A stretch of DNA of 64,000 nt, taken from positions 13,082,001 through 13,146,000 of the forward strand of contig NC_065876.1 of NCBI RefSeq assembly GCF_933775445.1, given 5' to 3'. This document shows positions 41,471 through 51,470 of this stretch, piece after piece. The DNA is from Argentina anserina. Lineage: Eukaryota > Streptophyta > Magnoliopsida > Rosales > Rosaceae. Within the stretch, counting starts at the first letter, position 1; every line of letters starts with the position of its first letter. The notes beneath the pieces were generated by a model that ran no database searches, was not told the origin of the DNA, and saw nothing but the letters and a program-made list of their open reading frames with translations. The position numbers were made by a program, and so were the translations under genes.

Positions 41471-42778
41471 ATATGCCGTGGTTTGGCTTCACAGATTTAC
41501 CTTTATCTTTCTCAAGACACTACAACAGTACAATCCCATCTTCTTTCTGTCTTTAGAAATTTTAATTTTTCTTTATGATGTATGTGAACTGGGTAGAAGC
41601 CATCTTATTCATAATCACCTAGTCTTAATAAATGTCAGATTCGTTTTTTTTTAATTCCATTTTGTGTAAACATGTATTATGAAGAAGAACAATATCAAAA
41701 GATCCCAAATCAATTTTTTTACTCTACTAAAATAAGACGTTATTGTGAAGGATTGACAACATATTTATACCAACATTATGTAATGCATAAGAAAACATGC
41801 ATGACTTGGAATCCTTAGATAACATAGGCCAGAATATGGTCTTCTCCATTTTAAATCCTTCTCTGAAATTAAACATATATTTGCAAGAAAAAAAAAGGGG
41901 CTTGTCCTACACTCCTACCTTGGAATTATATAGGGTGTTGAGCTCATGAATATTTGAAGCTGCACTGCACTGTCACCCAACACTTGCCAAAAACGGAAGC
42001 AGTACGTGTAGTTTGTTCTCTTCATTTCGCCATTATCTGATTGAATGCGTTTATATCTATTGTTTCAGACTTTCAGTCACCAGATTCAGATCTCAACATC
42101 CACAGAAAACCATAATGTCCAATTGTAGGATTCTACTGACGTTCAGTGCATAAGTTTTCCACTTTTCCTTGAATTATAGTATGCCAATTCTCAAGAAAAA
42201 ATAAAATAGTATGCCAGGAACTTGCATGTTTTCCTCATTCATTAGCTCGTGAGTAATTTTGAGTATTACTAGCATGTCACATAGAATGACCCACAAGCCT
42301 CAGCACCCACTGACTCTGGAGGAGAATATGTGGAGTCAAGTGGTGATAGAAATTGTGTGACAGTGAGTATCGTATTTCAATTATGTAGATTATGATTAGG
42401 TTGACAACTGTGCATGATTGAAACGGCGGCCCTTATTTTTCGTAATGTCTTATATAAATATACCATTAAAGAATATAGTTGTAAAGCATTAGTGCATATT
42501 TCAATTGCATACAACTAAAGAGATACAATTTTGCTGTTATTTAATTTGATTTAAGTCTAATCATATCGTATTTTCTCATTTATTTAACAACGTAACTATG
42601 ATATTTTTTGCTTAACAAAATATCTATTACCCATTAAATACAATCTAGTAGGCAACAAAAATGTAAAAGAAAGATCAAGAATATGTAGTATATCTAGCCA
42701 ACAAGTCAAGAAAAAAGGATGAAGAAAATACAAAAAAAAATGATAAGGGATATTTGGACATATATATATATATAATTA

Positions 42779-42963
42779 TGTTTGAGGATGAAATACTTGT
42801 ATATTATTGAATGATATGGGGGCCTATATATAGGCATTTACAACACCACAATCCCGTAGGATTCGGAGTCCTAATCTACTACGGAGATGCTAATCTATCT
42901 CCTAACAGGAAACCTATTAGGCTAAGACACACACAAGGGTAGAATAGTAATTCTCCCGGAACA
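42779..42963 (-). repeat. 3' LTR of the young copia element
   Basis: 185 bp; on the minus strand TGTTCCGGGAG..CATCCTCAAACA. The purine tract 42964-42974 lies directly inside. Confidence 0.95.
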
Positions 42964-43150
42964 CTCCCCCTTGTGTCGCATGCCTAGGTTGCATGGTGCA
43001 CACATCGTTGCCTCGGTAAAAACCTTGTCAAGCAAAACAAAAACCTCTTGGGTAAAACAAAAGCTTGATCGAAGGGAAAAAGAGCACAACGCACCAACTA
43101 CTTAAGGATCTTAACATGTGATGTAGACTCCCCCTGAAGTCTATCAAACT

Positions 43151-44302
43151 CTAGTGTTCCGATAAACGACGCATGCCAATGCTCTTCACATGTTTCACAA
43201 AAGTAGATTTAGGCAAAGACTTGGTGAACAAATCCGCAACATTGGATTCTGAACTCACTTGATTGATCTGAACATTCAAGAACTTCTGTTGTTGAACGTT
43301 GTAGAAGAACTTAGGCGAAATATGCTTGGTGTTGTCTCCCTTGATGAAACCTAACTTCGTCTGCTCTATGCAAGCAGCATTGTCTTCATAAATGCACGTA
43401 GGTTGATCAGTTGTAGAGACTAATCCACAAGAATCACGAATATGGCGAACAAGTGATCGTAGCCAAACACATTCTTTCACTGCTTCATGGAGAGCGATGA
43501 TCTCCGCGTGATTCGAAGAAGTAGCAACAAGAGATTGCTTTGTGGATCTCCAAGATATCGCCGTATTCCCAATGGTAAACACATAACCGGTTTGAGAACG
43601 AGCCTTGTGAGGGTCAGAGAGGTACCCTGCGTCGGCATAACCAACTAACAAGTTGTTTGGAGTCTTTGCATCGGGGGATAGAGCTGCACGGGACCGGTGG
43701 CTGCTCTCGGCACCGCGCACGGTCTCCACGCCATGGCGGCCGGCGGCGTCGCTGCGGCGTACGGCGGCAAGGCCGGGGTCGGCGACGGCGGTGGTGTGGG
43801 GAGATACCGTGGCGGTGTTCTCTCTGTAATAGGGGTAGAACAATCCCATGTCAAGGGAACCTTTCAAGTATCGAAACAAATGCTTGATTCCATTCCAATG
43901 ACGTAGCGTAGGTGCGGAGCTAAATCTAGCCAATAAGTTCACTGCGAAAGATATGTCCGGTCTAGTGCATTGAACAAGATACAATAGTGCCCCAATCGCA
44001 CTAAGGTATGGAACTTCAAGACCAAGAACATCTTCATCATCCTCTTTAGGACGGAAGGGATCCTTCTTGATATCTAGACTTCGGACGACCATGGGAGTAG
44101 ACAATGGACTGCATAGATCCATATTGAAACGTCGAAGCATCTTTTGCGTGTAATTTGACTGATGCACTAAGATGCCGTCGGCCCTATGCACAAGCTCAAG
44201 GCCGAGACAGAATTTCGTCCTCCCTAGGTCTTTCATCTCAAATTCCGACTTCAGATAAGACACGGTCTCCTCAATCTCATCAAGAGTACCGATTATGTTC
44301 AT
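43151..44302 (-). pseudogene. Copia pol 3' part: end of RT and RNase H
   Basis: 383 residues from an internal Met. The RT active site YVDD lies just upstream in the same phase (about 44303-44314). RT continues with EFEMKDLGRTKFCLGLE and TRPDISFAVNLLARFSS. RNase H follows with acidic residues in LLVGYADAGYLSD, NHAEIIALHEA and EDNAACIEQ. Between RT and RNase H is a GC-rich, low-complexity insert (43680-43815) that keeps the frame. It is separated from the upstream frame by a small shift with a TGA near 44347. RNase H would degrade RNA in the RNA/DNA hybrid. Confidence 0.88.
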
Positions 44303-44347
44303 GTCATCAACGTAGACCGCAACGATGACGAATCCGGAATTTGTCTT

Positions 44348-46498
44348 TCATATGAACACGCATGGGCATAGTTCATCATTCTTGTAACCCCTTCTCACCA
44401 AGTATTGATGCAACCGATTGTACCACATTCTTCCGGATTGCTTTAACCCGTACAATGAACGACGTAATCTGACTGCATGAGCACTCCGTGGTCTGGAGGC
44501 ACTTGATGGAGGTAAAGGTAGTCCCTCAGGAGCTTTCATGTATATTTCTGCGTCAAGATCCCCATAGAGATAAGCTGTGACCACATCCATAAGCTGCATG
44601 TTTAGTCTTTCGGACACTACCAGACTAATAAGGTAGCGGAAGGTAATGATGTCCATAACAGGAGAATAAGTCTCTTCATAGTCAATACCAGGTCGTTGTG
44701 AGAATCCTTGCGCCACGAGTCTTGCCTTATAACGCACGATCTCGTTCATCTCATTACGCTTACGAACGAAAACCCATTTATGTCCAACAGGTTTGACATC
44801 TCTTGGAGTCAATTCAACCTTTCCGAAGACTTCTCGCTTCGCTAATGAGTCAAGTTCTGCCTGGATTGCTTCCTTCCACTTCGGCCAATCTGCTCTGCGT
44901 TCGCATTCAGCTACAGAGCGAGGTTCAACGTCGTCTTCAGATATGATCTCAAATGCGACGGAATAAGCGAAAACGTCATCAATGCATGTAGTGGCTCGGT
45001 TTCGGACCGACTGCTCACTTGTGTAGTTCACTGAGATTTCGTTGTTCTCTGGCATCAAACAAGGTTCCATAGCGTCCCACGGAAACACTTGAGTTGATTC
45101 ATGGACATAGCTGTAATCAGAGACAACTTCATACGGTGGTGATTCATCGTTGATGACGCGTTGTGCCTTAGTCATTCGCTTCTTTCTAGGTTTTGAATCC
45201 CTAGAGTTTATCGGTCTCCCCCTTTTTCTTTGAGGAGCCGAGGCCGAAGCTGCTCCATGCTGGGCCATCTCAGCATCGTCGCCACAAGGGGCGCCGACAA
45301 CACCACGGCGTACAGTGGTGCCGCCGTCGACCTCCGTCCCACTGTCAGGGGCGGTGCCAACGTTGCTAGGTCCAGGAGCTTGTCTTCCACGCCCGTATTT
45401 CGGGACATCCAACCGTGCCGGTACGTTCGCAGCGGGTATGTTTGATCTCGTCACTTTAGCAATATCTACAAAGCCGTCGGGCATCGAATCCGCGACTTTC
45501 TGGAGGTCGATAATGCGTTGCACTTCTAACTCACTTTGAGCAGTGCGGGGATCATAATGAGACATAGTGGGGACACACCACATCAATTCCTGACGTTCAA
45601 TTGGAATGATAACATTCCCATCTCCCCCTAACGACGGGAAGCATGTCTCATCAAAGTGACAATCTGCAAATCTTGCAGTAAAGAGATCTCCGGTGGTTGG
45701 TTCTAAGTAGCGGACAATCGTTGGGGAATTATAGCCAACATAGATACCTAATCGTCTCTGAGGACCCATCTTAGTACGCAGCGGAGGCGTAATAGGCACA
45801 TAAACGGCGCAACCAAAGATGCGTAAGTGTGAAATATTGGGTTCGTAACCAGTTACCATCTGATACGCACTAAACGCTTGGTTAGCCGCGGGTCGGAAAC
45901 GAATAAGTGTCGCTGCATGCAACACTGCATATCCCCACGCAGAGACCGGCAGGTTAGTACCCATAACCATTGCCCGAGCAACAAGCTGAATACGCTTGAT
46001 GGTAGCCTCTGCTAGACCGTTCTGTGAATGAAAATGAGGAACGGGATGTTCAACTTCGATCCCAATAGACATGCAGTAATCATCAAAAGTTTTGGAGGTG
46101 AATTCTCCAGCATTATCCAAACGAATGGATTTGATAGTATAATCGGGGTGGTGAGCCCGAAGTTTGATGATCTCAGCTAATAACTTAGCAAATGCAGCAT
46201 TCCTTGTGGATAGCAATGCGACGTGTGACCAACGCGTCGATGCATCAACCAATACCATAAAATATCGAAAAGGTCCGCATTCTGGTTGAATAGGTCCACA
46301 AATGTCACCTTGGATACGTTGTAAGAATGGAATGTTCTCGGTTGAAGCCTTAGCAAAAGAAGGACTTCCTTGAAATTTAGCAAGAGAACAAGCTTTGCAA
46401 AACGAGCGATGGGCATCAGAAATTGCCATGGAGGCATGTGAAAGCACGGGAGGCATCACAAGCTCCTGTGAAGGAGGGGATGCCACCACCGACGGCAT
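44348..46498 (-). pseudogene. Copia pol middle part: integrase and most of RT
   Basis: 716 residues. The integrase zinc-binding end (AHRSFCKACSLAKF) is followed by the catalytic core: Asp in MVLVDASTRWSH, Asp in IRLDNAGEFTS, Glu in NGLAEATIKRIQ. A Pro/Gly/Ala-rich GC-rich linker follows (45230-45400), with RKRGRPINSRDSKPRKK. RT then begins at DWPKWKEAIQAELDSLA and runs through GHKWVFVRKRN, YKARLVAQGFSQRPGIDY and MQLMDVVTAYLYGDL to the stop just before YVDD. Its first codons overlap the previous frame in another phase, marking a frameshift in the GC-rich block near 46500. Confidence 0.9.
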
Positions 46499-47136
46499 GA
46501 AACCGTGGAGCTGCCGAGTGAGGCATGCTCGGCCTCACCATGCGGTGCATGGGTCGGCACGGCCTCACCGTGCGGAGCACGGGTGAGGTGATCCTCCAAT
46601 CGCTTCCGGGACTTGAAAAATGGATGACCATGTGAATTCTTAAGAATTCTAATCATCATATCACGTCCAGGGTGCCCGAGACGGGCATGCCAAAGCATAT
46701 AAGAGTCCGAATCACAAAAGTTGCGTTCAACCGCATATGATTCAAAGATCCGAATGGAAGTAAGATACAAACCATTCCCAAGACTCTTCATCTTCTCTAA
46801 GATGCGGCGATGGCCTGCTTTCTCAGAGGTAACGCAAAGATATTCCTCTCCATTCTCAACATAAGTATCGAGGTGAAAACCATTGGCACGTATGTCCTTA
46901 AAACTTAGCAAGGTGTGGGGAGACTTCGGCGCATAAAGAGTGTCTATGACGTTAAGAGTCGTACCATTAGGCAACATGAAAGAAGCAGTGCCTCTTCCTT
47001 GAATGATGGATTTCGAGCCAATCATTGTAGTCATCGAAGAAGTCGAAAACACTAGATCCGTGAACAACTGCCTGTGCCGTAGGACAGTGTGGGTGGTTCC
47101 GCAATCAGCTAGACATTCGATTTCACCGCGGGACAT
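46456..47136 (-). CDS. Copia pol 5' part: protease and pre-integrase domain
   Basis: 226 residues starting MSRGEIECLADCGTTHTVL. The aspartic protease motif here is D-C-G-T-T, a variant of the usual D-S/T-G. The GAG_pre-integrase domain is seen as YMLWHARLGHPGRDMM. The ATG follows directly on TTTTGTAG, an acceptor-like sequence preceded by CTGAC and a pyrimidine-rich tract. An in-frame TAG lies just before it, so pol cannot be read through from upstream in this frame. The end is a frameshift inside a GC-rich repeat (HGEAVPTHAPHGEAEH); the older copy at 25578 stays open across this point. Confidence 0.85.
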   Translation of the reverse strand: MSRGEIECLADCGTTHTVLRHRQLFTDLVFSTSSMTTMIGSKSIIQGRGTASFMLPNGTTLNVIDTLYAPKSPHTLLSFKDIRANGFHLDTYVENGEEYLCVTSEKAGHRRILEKMKSLGNGLYLTSIRIFESYAVERNFCDSDSYMLWHARLGHPGRDMMIRILKNSHGHPFFKSRKRLEDHLTRAPHGEAVPTHAPHGEAEHASLGSSTVSCRRWWHPLLHRSL

Positions 47137-48229
47137 CTACAAAATGACAATTAAGAGAGTCAGCGACACGGGAACAATTCTATACAATACGCCGTAGGAT
47201 ATTGTAAGAAAGGGAATCGGAACAAAGCGCGATTCCATCGAATGTATCACATGGCAATAGTACTACATTCTTCAACTAAAGAGTTGGAAATCATGGTATT
47301 GAAGCAGTGAAATACCAAACAGTAAACTAGGGTGGTATAAACCATCCAAAAATGGTGTGGAAAACACACACAAAGAGTACCGGTGAGTGCATAGAACGGA
47401 CTTGGAGAAAACCGGAAAAACAAACCGGAAAACCATGTCACAAGAACTCTAAACCGGGTGAATTTTGGACGAGGAAAACGTGGCAGCAGGGGCTGCTGTA
47501 ATATGCCGGAAGAATCACGAGAAAACGACGAAAAAATCGTCGAAAAAATCGTCGAAAAAATCGTCGAAAAACTCGGTGGAAAACCGGCGGCACCGATTGC
47601 CGGAAAAATCGGCCGGCGGCTGTCGAAACTGGCCGGTATGGAGGCCGGGACTTCAGGTCCGACAGGGGACGCCGGCAGGAGCCGAGTTGCGGTGCCGGAA
47701 ACGCTGGGAAATGGCCGGAAGACGGCGAATACGCCGGCAAAACGTGCCGGAAACGCCGGAATAGGAACCGGGGCCGGCCAAGGCAAAACGACGTCGTTTT
47801 CGACGTTCCGAGGTTCGTTTTCCGAATTTTAAGTTCCAAATTCACAATGTAGTGCTATTGGGGTCCCATGTAACCCAAAAAACGTCCAATTTAAAAACCA
47901 CGTGAGTTGCACACGTTGATCATCATGCTAAGTGTCGGATAAATAAAATTCTCAAAGAGATCGTCTTGTAAGCAAGAAATGAGAAATTTTATTGAATGCC
48001 AATCTTTAATACATCACACATGAACTTCTAATTCCAAAATCAAAAGACTATTACAAAGTCGATGAATATAACAATGGCGGTCGGCCATAACAATACTTGA
48101 ATCATAAAGCTAAAGAAGCTAAAACGACTAATCAAAGTCGGGAGTATCCATGGTAGCAACCGGAGGCCTAGCTTTAGAAGCAAGGGGCTCGGGTTTCATG
48201 GAGATATGGTGAGTCTCGATCTCATGGTC
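47137..48229 (-). other. 1.1-kb non-coding spacer between copia gag and pol
   Basis: Separates the gag stop from the pol start; gag and pol are in different phases. It contains a stretch with AATAAAATTTCTC, a CACGTG core, a block rich in TTCCGGCG/CGCCGGAA words (47630-47790) and a 15-bp tandem repeat GAAAAAATCGTC (47520-47575). The same order is seen in the older copy. Long open frames here start with GTG rather than ATG and are compositionally biased, so I do not call them genes. Confidence 0.75.
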
Positions 48230-49195
48230 CTATTCCACATGATTCGATTCGGGTTGTAGAAACTTCTTGTAGGCGGAGTAAGCCTTGATCATCTCTTTGC
48301 TAGCGCGACAATCGCGATTAAAGTGCTTAAAGGAGCCACATTTGAAGCATGGAGACTTGCCATTACCGGAAGTGGAGGCATTAGGAGGCGCACGGCCTCC
48401 TTGGAGTGTGGGACGGGGACGGCCTCCCCCTGAGGGTGCGGCGCCGCCACCATCACGGGTCCATGTATTGGACCGAGGCCGAGATCGGCCTTGTTGCCTC
48501 CCACCACGAGAGTTGTTATTTTGGTGCTGATATGGAGCGTTCCTTGATTGATTCTTTTGCTTAGGAGCTTTCCCATAGTTAACCTGTGGCGTAGAAATTC
48601 TTTTAGTGCCAACAGGTCTATTGTTGTTGTTGAGGAGAATCTCAGAATGTCTCTCCTTCTTAGCTAAGAGTGCCATTAAGTCGGCAAAAGACCGGATCTT
48701 CCCTTCCTCTACATGAGTGCGGTACGTATGAGCTTGAACCTCATAGTTGATTGGAAACGTGTCCAATGTCTTATTGAGAAGATCTAGGTCGGTCTTGATG
48801 ACACCAACGGTGCCAAGATCGGATTGCAAGCATAGCATATCCTGATTGAAATCATCCACTCTCTTATAGTCCAATAGACGGATGTTATCCCATCTAACGG
48901 TCAATTCAGGAAGAAGCTTATCATGAACGTTGTTGTACCGCAAGCGTAGTTTGTCCCATAATTCTTTAGGATCTTTTACGTTCAAGTATTGCCTCTTGAG
49001 AGTTGCATGGATGTGACGTCTCATAAAGATGAGAGTCTGAGTCTTAGCCATAGGTGGGAAATCAGCAGGAGGGTCGGCAAACATGCCTTCAATCCCTCGG
49101 CTCTCAAACGCGAGTTCCATGTCGGAAACCCAGCGGTGGTATTCCTTTCCTTCTAGATCAAGAAGGCCAAATTCCGGTCGAGATGGCGATGACAT
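48230..49195 (-). CDS. Copia Gag, intact
   Basis: 321 residues with its own stop. A UBN2-type Gag core spans about 15-190 (YHRWVSDMELAFESRG, DPKELWDKLRLRYNNVHDKL, LDTFPINYEVQAHTYR). A Gly/Arg-rich linker (230-280) is encoded by GC-rich DNA. A CCHC zinc knuckle lies at 283-296 (CFKCGSFKHFNRDC). The ATG at 49195 follows TTTTGTAG directly. Gag forms the particle and binds element RNA. Unlike pol it is undamaged, so it could still be made. Standard plant copia elements fuse gag and pol in one frame; here gag ends on its own. Confidence 0.9.
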   Translation of the reverse strand: MSSPSRPEFGLLDLEGKEYHRWVSDMELAFESRGIEGMFADPPADFPPMAKTQTLIFMRRHIHATLKRQYLNVKDPKELWDKLRLRYNNVHDKLLPELTVRWDNIRLLDYKRVDDFNQDMLCLQSDLGTVGVIKTDLDLLNKTLDTFPINYEVQAHTYRTHVEEGKIRSFADLMALLAKKERHSEILLNNNNRPVGTKRISTPQVNYGKAPKQKNQSRNAPYQHQNNNSRGGRQQGRSRPRSNTWTRDGGGAAPSGGGRPRPTLQGGRAPPNASTSGNGKSPCFKCGSFKHFNRDCRASKEMIKAYSAYKKFLQPESNHVE

Positions 49196-49540
49196 CTACA
49201 AAACGAATACGGAATCGATTAGATTCAAGTATAATAGGAATTAGAAGGGGTGACGTATATGGTCACAAGAAAAATCGATGCAAGCGGCGATACTCATGAT
49301 CGCACCCAAAACAGCGATGCACTCAAGCGACCACACGAAAATCGATTAACTTCCCTTTCAAAACAATCGTGACTCCCCCAGGACCGTCACACAGAAAACA
49401 TCGACCAAGAGGGGAAACCCATCCCTCTATAGTCTCATCGGCGTTATAAGAAAGGCCGGAATTAAGACAAGAAGAAGGCTAATAGCGCCCGATATAATAT
49501 ATCTATACGTTCAAAAGCGGGAACGTTTATAAAAATTTAC
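49196..49540 (-). promoter_or_regulatory. Candidate leader intron of the young copia element
   Basis: Read on the minus strand: donor CCCAAG|GTAAATTTTT at 49541/49540, branch-like CTAAT about 25 nt before the end, acceptor TTCGTTTTGTAG at 49196, ATG of gag next. The same donor could be joined to 47137 (acceptor CATTTTGTAG before pol), skipping gag. Inferred from sequence only. Confidence 0.5.
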
Positions 49541-49694
49541 CTTGGGAGGTTTGTAGTATACGAGAGTAGCTTCTCTTGAGCGAAGTCCTTGCTTGTGACT
49601 TTCACGTCTCTTGCGTGAATATGCAGGAGGAGCAATTTTGAGTGATTTGATGCGGGAACTTGCGGGGCAAAAAGATTTCTTTGCGGAGCGAATG

Positions 49695-49870
49695 CGGAGG
49701 AAGCTTTGCGGGGCTGCGGGGCTGCAGGGCTGCTGGGCTGCAGGGCTGTAGGGCTGCGGGGCTGCGGGGCTGCGGGGATGCAGGGCTGCAGGGCTGCGAG
49801 GGCAGGCAGGGGCTGCGGCGGCGGCAGGAGGATGCGGCGGCGGCAGGAAGATGCGGCGGCAGGGGGTTGC
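49695..49870. repeat. GC-rich leader repeats of the young copia element, G-quadruplex-prone
   Basis: The plus strand shows runs such as GGGGCTGCGGGGCTGCAGGG repeated about ten times, then GGCGGCGGCAGGAGGATGC. More than four G3+ runs with 4-nt loops fit the G-quadruplex pattern on the strand complementary to the element RNA. Confidence 0.88.
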
Positions 49871-49949
49871 GGCGGCGGAGGAAGGGAAGAAGAAAAAATT
49901 TCGGAAGGCTCTAAAAGATTCAGGGTTTTAGGGCTTCGTGCTGATAACG

Positions 49950-50134
49950 TGTTTGAGGATGAAATACTTGTATATTATTGAATGATATGGGGGCCTATAT
50001 ATAGGCATTTACAACACCACAATCCCGTAGGATTCGGAGTCCTAATCTACTACGGAGATGCTAATCTATCTCCTAACAGGAAACCTATTAGGCTAAGACA
50101 CACACAAGGGTAGAATAGTAATTCTCCCGGAACA
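49950..50134 (-). repeat. 5' LTR of the young copia element
   Basis: 185 bp; sequence indistinguishable by eye from 42779..42963. Confidence 0.95.
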
Positions 50135-50187
50135 AATTATAAATTAAAGAAAATGATGGAAAGAAATATGGCCAAAAGAATGAAAGA

Positions 50188-50332: not shown

Positions 50333-50382
<50 letters not shown>
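50330..50382. repeat. (TA)n microsatellite
   Basis: About 25 TA units after GAGTATATAT. Confidence 0.95.
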
Positions 50383-50383
<1 letters not shown>

Positions 50384-51470
50384 CCTAAAATTTGGGGTCC
50401 TGTGCAGTCGCTCTTCTCTCCCACACATTAAGAGCCGGCCTTGACAGCAATAGCTCAAATTGCCCAATGGTATTAGGTGATTCTTCTTTCCTTATCTTGC
50501 TTTAAAGTTCATTAGTTTGTGCTAGACTGCTAGATGATTGTGGGTACTAAAGCTAAAGCGTTGATTCCCCTTCAAACCATATCTGGAAAAAATTGAAAAT
50601 TCTCAGAAGGTTCATTGATATCGATCGAATCACGTGTGTAATGACTTACATGACCTTATTGGCGCATAACACAAATTGAAGACTAAAGATAATGGATGGA
50701 GTTGTCTTGGTACATATGTAATCTTTTGGACAAGAACATAATAAAGGACTTGTTAGATTTAACTCAGTGGAGCAAATTTAAGATCTTTGAACATGTACTT
50801 AAAAACCAATGATTGTGTTCATAAAAAGAAACTCTTCTTGTTATTATGGTGTTTAAGTAGATACTGATTTTGAAATTATGTCATTTTAAATTACTAACTG
50901 CTCAATTTTAGTTTTATGAACAAATTATAATACGATATTTATAATAAATAAAACATGATTTTAGCGAAGAGGTTCTAAATGTTCATATCCTCCAATCCCA
51001 AAATTATTCTAGTATTTTAAGAGCAAATGCAGCGCGGCTGGTCTTGCCTTTTAGTTAATCTTAATTAAATCTATTGCAGGAAAATTGCCCGATCAAAGCC
51101 ACTGGCATCTCTTGCCTCTTGGTATGGTCGACCAATTCAATAGGTCCCCATGATTAAAGTTAGTAAATTTTTTTGTTTCATCCACAACATCTTTTTATTC
51201 TCTTTTTTTACCCTACATCATTTGTTTGTGAATCTTGTCTTCGTCACTTTTGTGAAAGCTAAAGGGCAAAATTATGAGGAGACTTGCCTTCTCCCGCTGC
51301 ATAACAAAAATGAAAGACACATGCCAACTGATATTCAAGAGGTAAAAACCTCTGATTTTGCCTCTGCCTTTTGACCGTGTGGTGCATTTGCTCTAAGCAA
51401 CACATCTTGCCGTCGGAACATAATTTCGGTTACTGCAAATTTGTAACGGCCACCACGGCACCACCACCCC
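50383..51470. other. Intergenic DNA with no supported feature
   Basis: AT-rich. Short frames such as 51150..51374 have no start context, domain or homologous feel and are not called. Confidence 0.45.

Follow-up and report, generated by a model that had tools for sequence, protein, structure and literature searches.

The subject of this analysis is a Ty1/copia long terminal repeat (LTR) retrotransposon carried by a 64,000-nucleotide (nt) stretch of the Argentina anserina genome (contig NC_065876.1, positions 13,082,001 to 13,146,000). This stretch is called the window throughout and its numbering is used for all coordinates. The element lies on the minus strand, from 50134 to 42779 (7.36 kb), as do all its features given below. 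Its gag and pol genes are very probably expressed from different messenger RNAs (mRNAs) by alternative choice of the 3' splice site, which we consider the best full explanation of the sequence data. The DNA contains the signals themselves, these recur between families of related elements, and integrated copies exist in which the splice junctions are preserved. As in foamy viruses, Pol is probably translated on its own, as a separate protein, from an mRNA spliced for it. The element fits the Bianca lineage by its two open reading frames (ORFs) and a primer site resembling half-tRNA-Ile, an assignment by features and not by phylogenetic placement.

In the scheme we propose, a single 5' splice site at the end of a leader exon would serve both mRNAs. 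Joined to an acceptor that abuts the gag AUG, it would yield the gag mRNA; joined to a second acceptor that abuts the pol AUG, it would yield the pol mRNA, from which the leader intron, gag and the spacer that follows gag are removed. Pol would be translated from its own AUG as a separate polyprotein (protease, integrase, reverse transcriptase (RT) and RNase H, in that order), and the unspliced RNA would be the genome. An AATAAA just after gag, in the pol intron, probably lets some of the gag mRNA end early. The gag and pol mRNAs would then compete at one RNA-processing switch.

Splice signals

The initial annotation had drawn attention to a donor, CCCAAG/GTAAAT (the slash marks the cut), to TTTTGTAG directly before both ATGs, and to branch-like motifs upstream of each; all of these are present as described. 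The shared 5' splice site, AAG/GTA (49538..49543), is cut between 49541 and 49540. The 3' splice sites, TTTTGTAG/ATG in both cases, are located at 49196..49203 for gag (ATG at 49195) and at 47137..47144 for pol (ATG at 47136), and it is the latter that is found joined to the leader in genomic copies (see below). The branch-like motifs, CTAAT for gag (49218-49222) and CTGAC for pol (47159..47163), both start 27 nt before the ATG. The predicted leader intron (49196..49540; 345 nt, including 4 ATGs) would be removed for the gag mRNA. The predicted pol intron (47137..49540; 2404 nt), which is absent from some genomic copies, consists of the leader intron, gag and the spacer. When the region between the LTR and early pol was scored with an approximate plant matrix, none of the other GTs (155 in all) scored as high as the donor, and the two best of 152 AGs were the pol acceptor and, after it, the gag acceptor.

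We compared 20 distinct copies of the family to which the window element belongs (family A), picked by leader similarity and including the window's own copy (L009). Of the donors, 18 read GT and the other two GC, and the acceptor AG is retained in 19 copies for gag and in all 20 for pol. A wider search with the donor region gave at least 203 matches at up to 3 mismatches (98 GT and 2 GC among the 100 listed); here and below, repeat copy numbers are lower bounds. Since the copies were chosen by leader similarity and differ by only about 0.7-3.6% outside the leader repeats, the conservation of these sites within family A proves little: donor and acceptors are kept in nearly all copies, but the divergence is too low for comparison with neutral expectation. 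Diverged families and genomic copies with splice junctions ('fossil' cDNAs) were therefore used instead.

Genomic copies with splice junctions

The family-A junction query was a 23-nt pattern in which the leader exon runs into ATGTC, the first letters of gag as well as of pol; as many as 2 mismatches were allowed. It gave three matches, compared with none for the reversed control, and all three (L043, L044 and L045) join the leader exactly to pol, without leader intron, gag or spacer. One of them, L043/L046 (L043 is C3:29520516-29523538), includes a 5' LTR, primer site, leader and junction, with a 3' LTR approximately 4.2 kb beyond the junction, and both LTRs are bordered by a matching 5-bp target site duplication (TSD), AACAC. 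Its pol frame is open as far as it was read (501 codons). The three loci are not mutual closest relatives (the distance of L044 is possibly inflated by a deletion), and unspliced copies occur with both of the leader variants found at the junctions. A natural 220-nt piece of L043 was also used as a query. Among the best 40 of 1298 candidates, which were scored, this added a fourth family-A locus in which leader and pol match contiguously (86% identity), and the remaining 36 matches begin at the acceptor AG.

Similar junctions were found in a second family, B. The leader-pol junction is present at two loci, one with 0 mismatches over 33 nt, and the leader-gag junction at four loci with 0 to 3 mismatches; neither control gave a match. 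With a natural piece of family B as query (best 40 candidates), 34 matches start no more than 2 nt from the acceptor, one starts further in and three cover the leader side only. It should be noted that the junction patterns are fixed at the predicted positions and so favour exact joins, while the natural-piece queries are freer but concern the best 40 candidates only.

The proposed joining of the leader to pol without gag is thus seen at four family-A and two family-B loci, with no match in reversed controls. Judged from these junctions, the pol acceptor has been used in family A. Joining of the leader to gag, the other half of the original proposal, holds for four family-B loci (controls 0) but was not found in family A. 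The presence of both types of junction in family B implies that both acceptors of one donor have been used there.

Gag-less copies such as L043 could depend on the Gag of other elements, as BARE2 does (PMC3735527).

Leader, putative poly(A) signal and pol start

The leader exon (49541..49935) is nearly free of ATGs and includes variable GC-rich 8-bp repeats, arranged in tandem at 49707-49804 in the window copy. Between a point about 20 nt past the TATA box and the donor, no ATG occurs in 18 of the 20 family-A copies, compared with approximately 3.25 expected from composition; the leader stretch scored, which includes 60 nt of LTR, measures 359 to 598 nt in these copies. ATGs are common elsewhere in the same copies (4-6 in the intron, 26-30 in gag and 13-16 in the spacer). 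Because the leader is free of them, joining it to either acceptor would make the ATG of gag or that of pol the first ATG in most family-A copies.

The putative poly(A) signal, AATAAA at 47988..47993, lies within the pol intron. It is located 134 nt past the gag stop in all 20 family-A copies and at comparable distances after gag in other families: 152-154 nt in two B copies, 148 nt in three D copies and 118-119 nt in two G copies. The gag mRNA may end inside the pol intron at this conserved motif, and a short gag mRNA is likely by analogy with the element EVD, which couples splicing to early polyadenylation. That no gag-junction fossils were found in family A would fit a short gag mRNA, because such an RNA would be without the 3' end for reverse transcription. 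Three of the four gag-spliced copies of family B, however, retain the pol acceptor, and in the fourth a match to the pol start lies about 1.5 kb downstream, which shows that part of the gag-spliced RNA reads on.

In all seven homologues aligned, a Met stands opposite the Met that starts pol; their sources include Malus, Centaurea and Papaver (species other than Argentina anserina are represented by proteins only). These seven are drawn from 13 pol homologues; five others (P0038, P0039, P0043, P0044 and P0045), whose sequences start after this Met, were excluded. The family-B slice in this alignment ended short of its start, which was read separately. A scan of viral_contigs with the first 112 amino acids (aa) of pol gave no relatives.

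Related families in the same genome

Searching the 237 Mb genome with the family-B Gag (P0032) identified diverged families, with Gag identities to this query of 47-50% for A, 53% for C, 50-51% for G and 43-47% for D. Most of the layout recurs in these Bianca-like families. Family B has the donor AAG/GTTAGT, a gag acceptor TTTGTAG/ATG and a pol acceptor TTGTAG/GAATG. In family D, the donor CAAG/GTAAAT is found in four copies (L038, L039, L040 and L056), and TTGTAG is located directly ahead of the gag start position in five copies and before pol in three of five. Both family-G copies carry TTTTGTAG/GTATG ahead of pol. The single copy of family C includes a donor and a gag acceptor, and the DNA examined stops short of its pol start. 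The distance from acceptor to ATG is 0 nt in families A and D and 2 nt in B and G. In all nine acceptor sites examined in A, B, D and G, the relaxed branch motif YTNAY begins at -26 to -29.

Family G (L041, 1300-1960; L042, 1300-2100) keeps the pol acceptor though the AG of the gag acceptor is missing. Without an AG before it, gag may be translated in this family from unspliced RNA. One family-D copy (L040, 3640-4180, on the reverse strand of the locus) has an insertion in its gag-pol spacer with GGGACGGGAC-type repeats, reminiscent of a miniature inverted-repeat transposable element (MITE).

A number of observations weigh against expression of gag and pol by alternative splicing. Spliced fossils are few (four in family A against at least 203 unspliced donor sites, and two plus four in family B against at least 23), so that splicing could be an occasional event. 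Pattern searches of the genome gave 0 matches for the gag junction in family A and 0 for either junction in family D. As to the family-A fossils themselves, L043 was covered at its two ends, which flank a middle part of approximately 2.3 kb; the stretch examined for L044 includes a 5' LTR and the primer site and lacks a 3' LTR; L045 has lost part of its 5' side, so that its one LTR match is to the 3' LTR; and the fourth junction is seen as a contiguous match. Divergence within family A is too low for testing single sites. Among the other families, TTGTAC replaces TTGTAG before pol in two of the five family-D copies, the family-D donor string was not found in L052 and L054, and L058 (42% identity) showed none of the splice sites. 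The two family-G copies have neither an AG before gag nor a clear leader donor. The strict branch motif CTRAY occurs in only six of ten acceptor sites, and family C fits neither motif at -26 to -29. The leader stretches of families B and D contain ATGs (two in each of two B copies and one in one D copy), counted over stretches that take in about 60 nt of LTR wherever a primer site could be located. Finally, P0046, the weakest of the 13 pol homologues, which was left out of the alignment, has no Met at the pol start.

gag and pol frames and other possible routes to Pol

The initial annotation described gag and pol as separate frames, 1.1 kb apart and out of phase. They are indeed separate, but the other two points require correction. 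The gag ORF of the window copy (48230..49195; 321 aa) ends at a premature stop, and the family frame reaches 48128: in 14 of the 20 family-A copies gag is 355-360 aa long and ends at window position 48128-48130 (homologue P0001). The spacer (47137..48127) is 991 nt in the window copy and 947-991 nt across the family, so that the usual gap is about 0.95-0.99 kb. The phase is not fixed, since the gag-to-pol offset modulo 3 is 0, 1 and 2 in 6, 11 and 3 of the 20 copies, respectively. The spacer has stops in all frames (9-14 per frame), and the variable offset together with these stops makes simple linkage by frameshift or readthrough very unlikely. Six of the 20 copies have a pol frame of 1327-1328 open codons that starts with the ATG adjoining the acceptor, and five have both gag and pol open. 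A 179-aa ORF in the spacer that starts with TTG (47247-47786) matches no Pfam family and is taken as a chance ORF.

A different role for the leader-pol splice can be envisaged, in which it is a by-product and functional Pol is obtained by internal initiation, by reinitiation after gag or from a second promoter in the spacer. This would account for spliced fossils being a small minority, and spliced integrated copies are known for LINE-1 as dead ends (PMC5860798). However, a pol acceptor is present in all of A, B, D and G, with the pol ATG 0-2 nt after it, and scanning onward from gag would meet 13-16 ATGs in approximately 1 kb of spacer. We consider this explanation improbable.

Slightly less probable again is an arrangement like that of Ogre elements, which splice out the intron between their ORFs and so join them (PMC6317226). 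Only the spacer would be spliced out, bordered by a donor close to where gag ends and by the pol acceptor, to give a Gag-Pol fusion, and some protein models (P0036 and P0035) do fuse gag-like or other upstream sequence to Pol. Against this, all five pol junctions that were read join the leader, not gag (junctions from a gag donor were not searched for), and the best donors within gag score 2.94 and 2.5 compared with 5.38 for the leader donor. In addition, the gag-pol offset takes all three values in family A, the distance from acceptor to ATG varies by family, as given above, and the Met that starts Pol is conserved.

Internal deletions are common in LTR elements, but there is next to no chance that the gag-less copies are ordinary genomic deletions rather than splicing products: both ends fall exactly at predicted splice sites in five leader-pol junctions from two families that are about 50% diverged in Gag, reversed controls gave 0 matches, L043 has both LTRs and a TSD, and L043, L044 and L045 are not mutual closest relatives. 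Imprecise joins, however, would have escaped the fixed patterns and could be picked up by the natural-piece queries only.

Comparison with known systems

Expression of gag and pol through two acceptors of one leader donor can be compared with several systems described elsewhere. Separate gag and pol ORFs, with a mean gap of 172 bp, have been reported for Bianca elements, and a unique expression strategy was suggested (Neumann et al. 2019, PMC6317226). The window element resembles Bianca as published in its copia domain order and its separate ORFs with a non-coding gap, and its primer site is a candidate for the half-tRNA-Ile type. It differs in the size of the gap (approximately 0.95-0.99 kb in family A) and in the splicing with exact junctions proposed here. 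The initial annotation regarded two ORFs as a departure from the single gag-pol frame normal in plant copia elements, but for Bianca this is already reported as usual (PMC6317226).

A spliced pol mRNA without gag is a hallmark of foamy viruses (PMC7828637, PMC2194720). As in those viruses, gag-less pol RNA appears to be derived from a leader donor, which here is known from DNA fossils in two families. Two differences are evident. Here, gag also receives its own leader-intron splice, and the pol acceptor lies in the spacer after gag; that of foamy viruses is reportedly (Bodem et al.) located inside gag. Foamy viruses (Spumaretrovirinae) are an unrelated family of retroelements, and the Bianca arrangement would work similarly without kinship.

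EVD (Atcopia93) has a single gag-pol ORF, and the same is reported for BARE (PMC3735527). EVD, BARE1 and Drosophila copia are known to splice for gag only (PMC8892269, PMC3735527, PMC2194720), and EVD couples such splicing to early polyadenylation (PMC8892269). The present elements are like EVD and BARE1 in that splicing would yield a gag-only mRNA, but in those elements splicing favours Gag, whereas here a second acceptor would yield a pol mRNA without gag. Sunflower elements produce several spliced isoforms (PMC7730604). Ogre, a Ty3/gypsy element, also has two ORFs with a non-coding stretch between them and involves splicing (PMC6317226); there the splice joins the ORFs, while the one described here connects the leader with pol and takes gag out. 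Among the matches listed from the open-licence literature, there was no report of a gag-less spliced pol mRNA in a plant LTR retrotransposon.

We are inclined, with some reserve, to extend the scheme to the whole angiosperm Bianca lineage as an independently arisen, foamy-like strategy with one leader donor, alternative gag and pol acceptors and a gag poly(A) site in the pol intron. A single choice would then set the Gag:Pol ratio, Pol would be packaged without a Gag-Pol fusion, and spliced pol RNAs with the ends for reverse transcription would seed gag-less, possibly parasitic copies. The expression of Bianca pol was left open when the two-ORF layout was reported (PMC6317226), and the present scheme offers a concrete and testable answer. 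If Pol is not fused to Gag, one may also ask how it gets into particles. Where RNA sequencing data are lacking, copies of spliced element RNAs left in the genome can take their place as evidence for splice junctions.

Element boundaries and domains

The 5' LTR (49950..50134; 185 bp) is identical to the 3' LTR (42779..42963), and the TSD, TAATT, is present at 50135-50139 and 42774-42778. A purine tract (42964-42972) is located next to the 3' LTR. The primer-binding site (49936..49949) adjoins the 5' LTR; the sequence directly behind the LTR in the window, cgttatcagcacga, is present in all 20 family-A copies. It is putatively complementary to tRNA-Ile(IAU), as a half-tRNA-Ile primer site would be. 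No tRNA gene occurs in the window. Bianca primer sites are of the edited half-tRNA-Ile type (PMC6317226), which the site appears to resemble, and the two ORFs with a non-coding region between them also agree with Bianca, with a gap larger than the published mean.

The pol of the window copy is broken into several frames. The first (46456..47136) covers Pol_BBD and the pre-integrase region and breaks after 226 codons. A further frame (44348..46498) includes integrase, an SH3-like domain and the first part of RT, and another (43151..44302) includes the last part of RT followed by a stretch where RNase H is expected. A Pfam search of the pol frames gave Pol_BBD, gag_pre-integrs, rve, SH3-like and RVT_2, all over the cut-off; the Gag match fell under it (19.6 compared with 27 bits). 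This search of the element frames returned no RNase H match and no family named protease. We take the Pol_BBD domain to be the protease region. Integrase is located ahead of RT and the gag ORF lies upstream, as in copia elements. Matches between the window Gag and annotated Argentina anserina proteins reach 99% (across 62% of the query). Between pre-integrase and integrase, at 46520-46600, pol contains a short repeated HGEA-type stretch.

The LTRs of the copy (42779-50134) are identical, though its gag has a premature stop and its pol is broken, which suggests that it may have been mobilised by the proteins of other copies. A long (AT)n run lies beside the insertion site (50335-50385).

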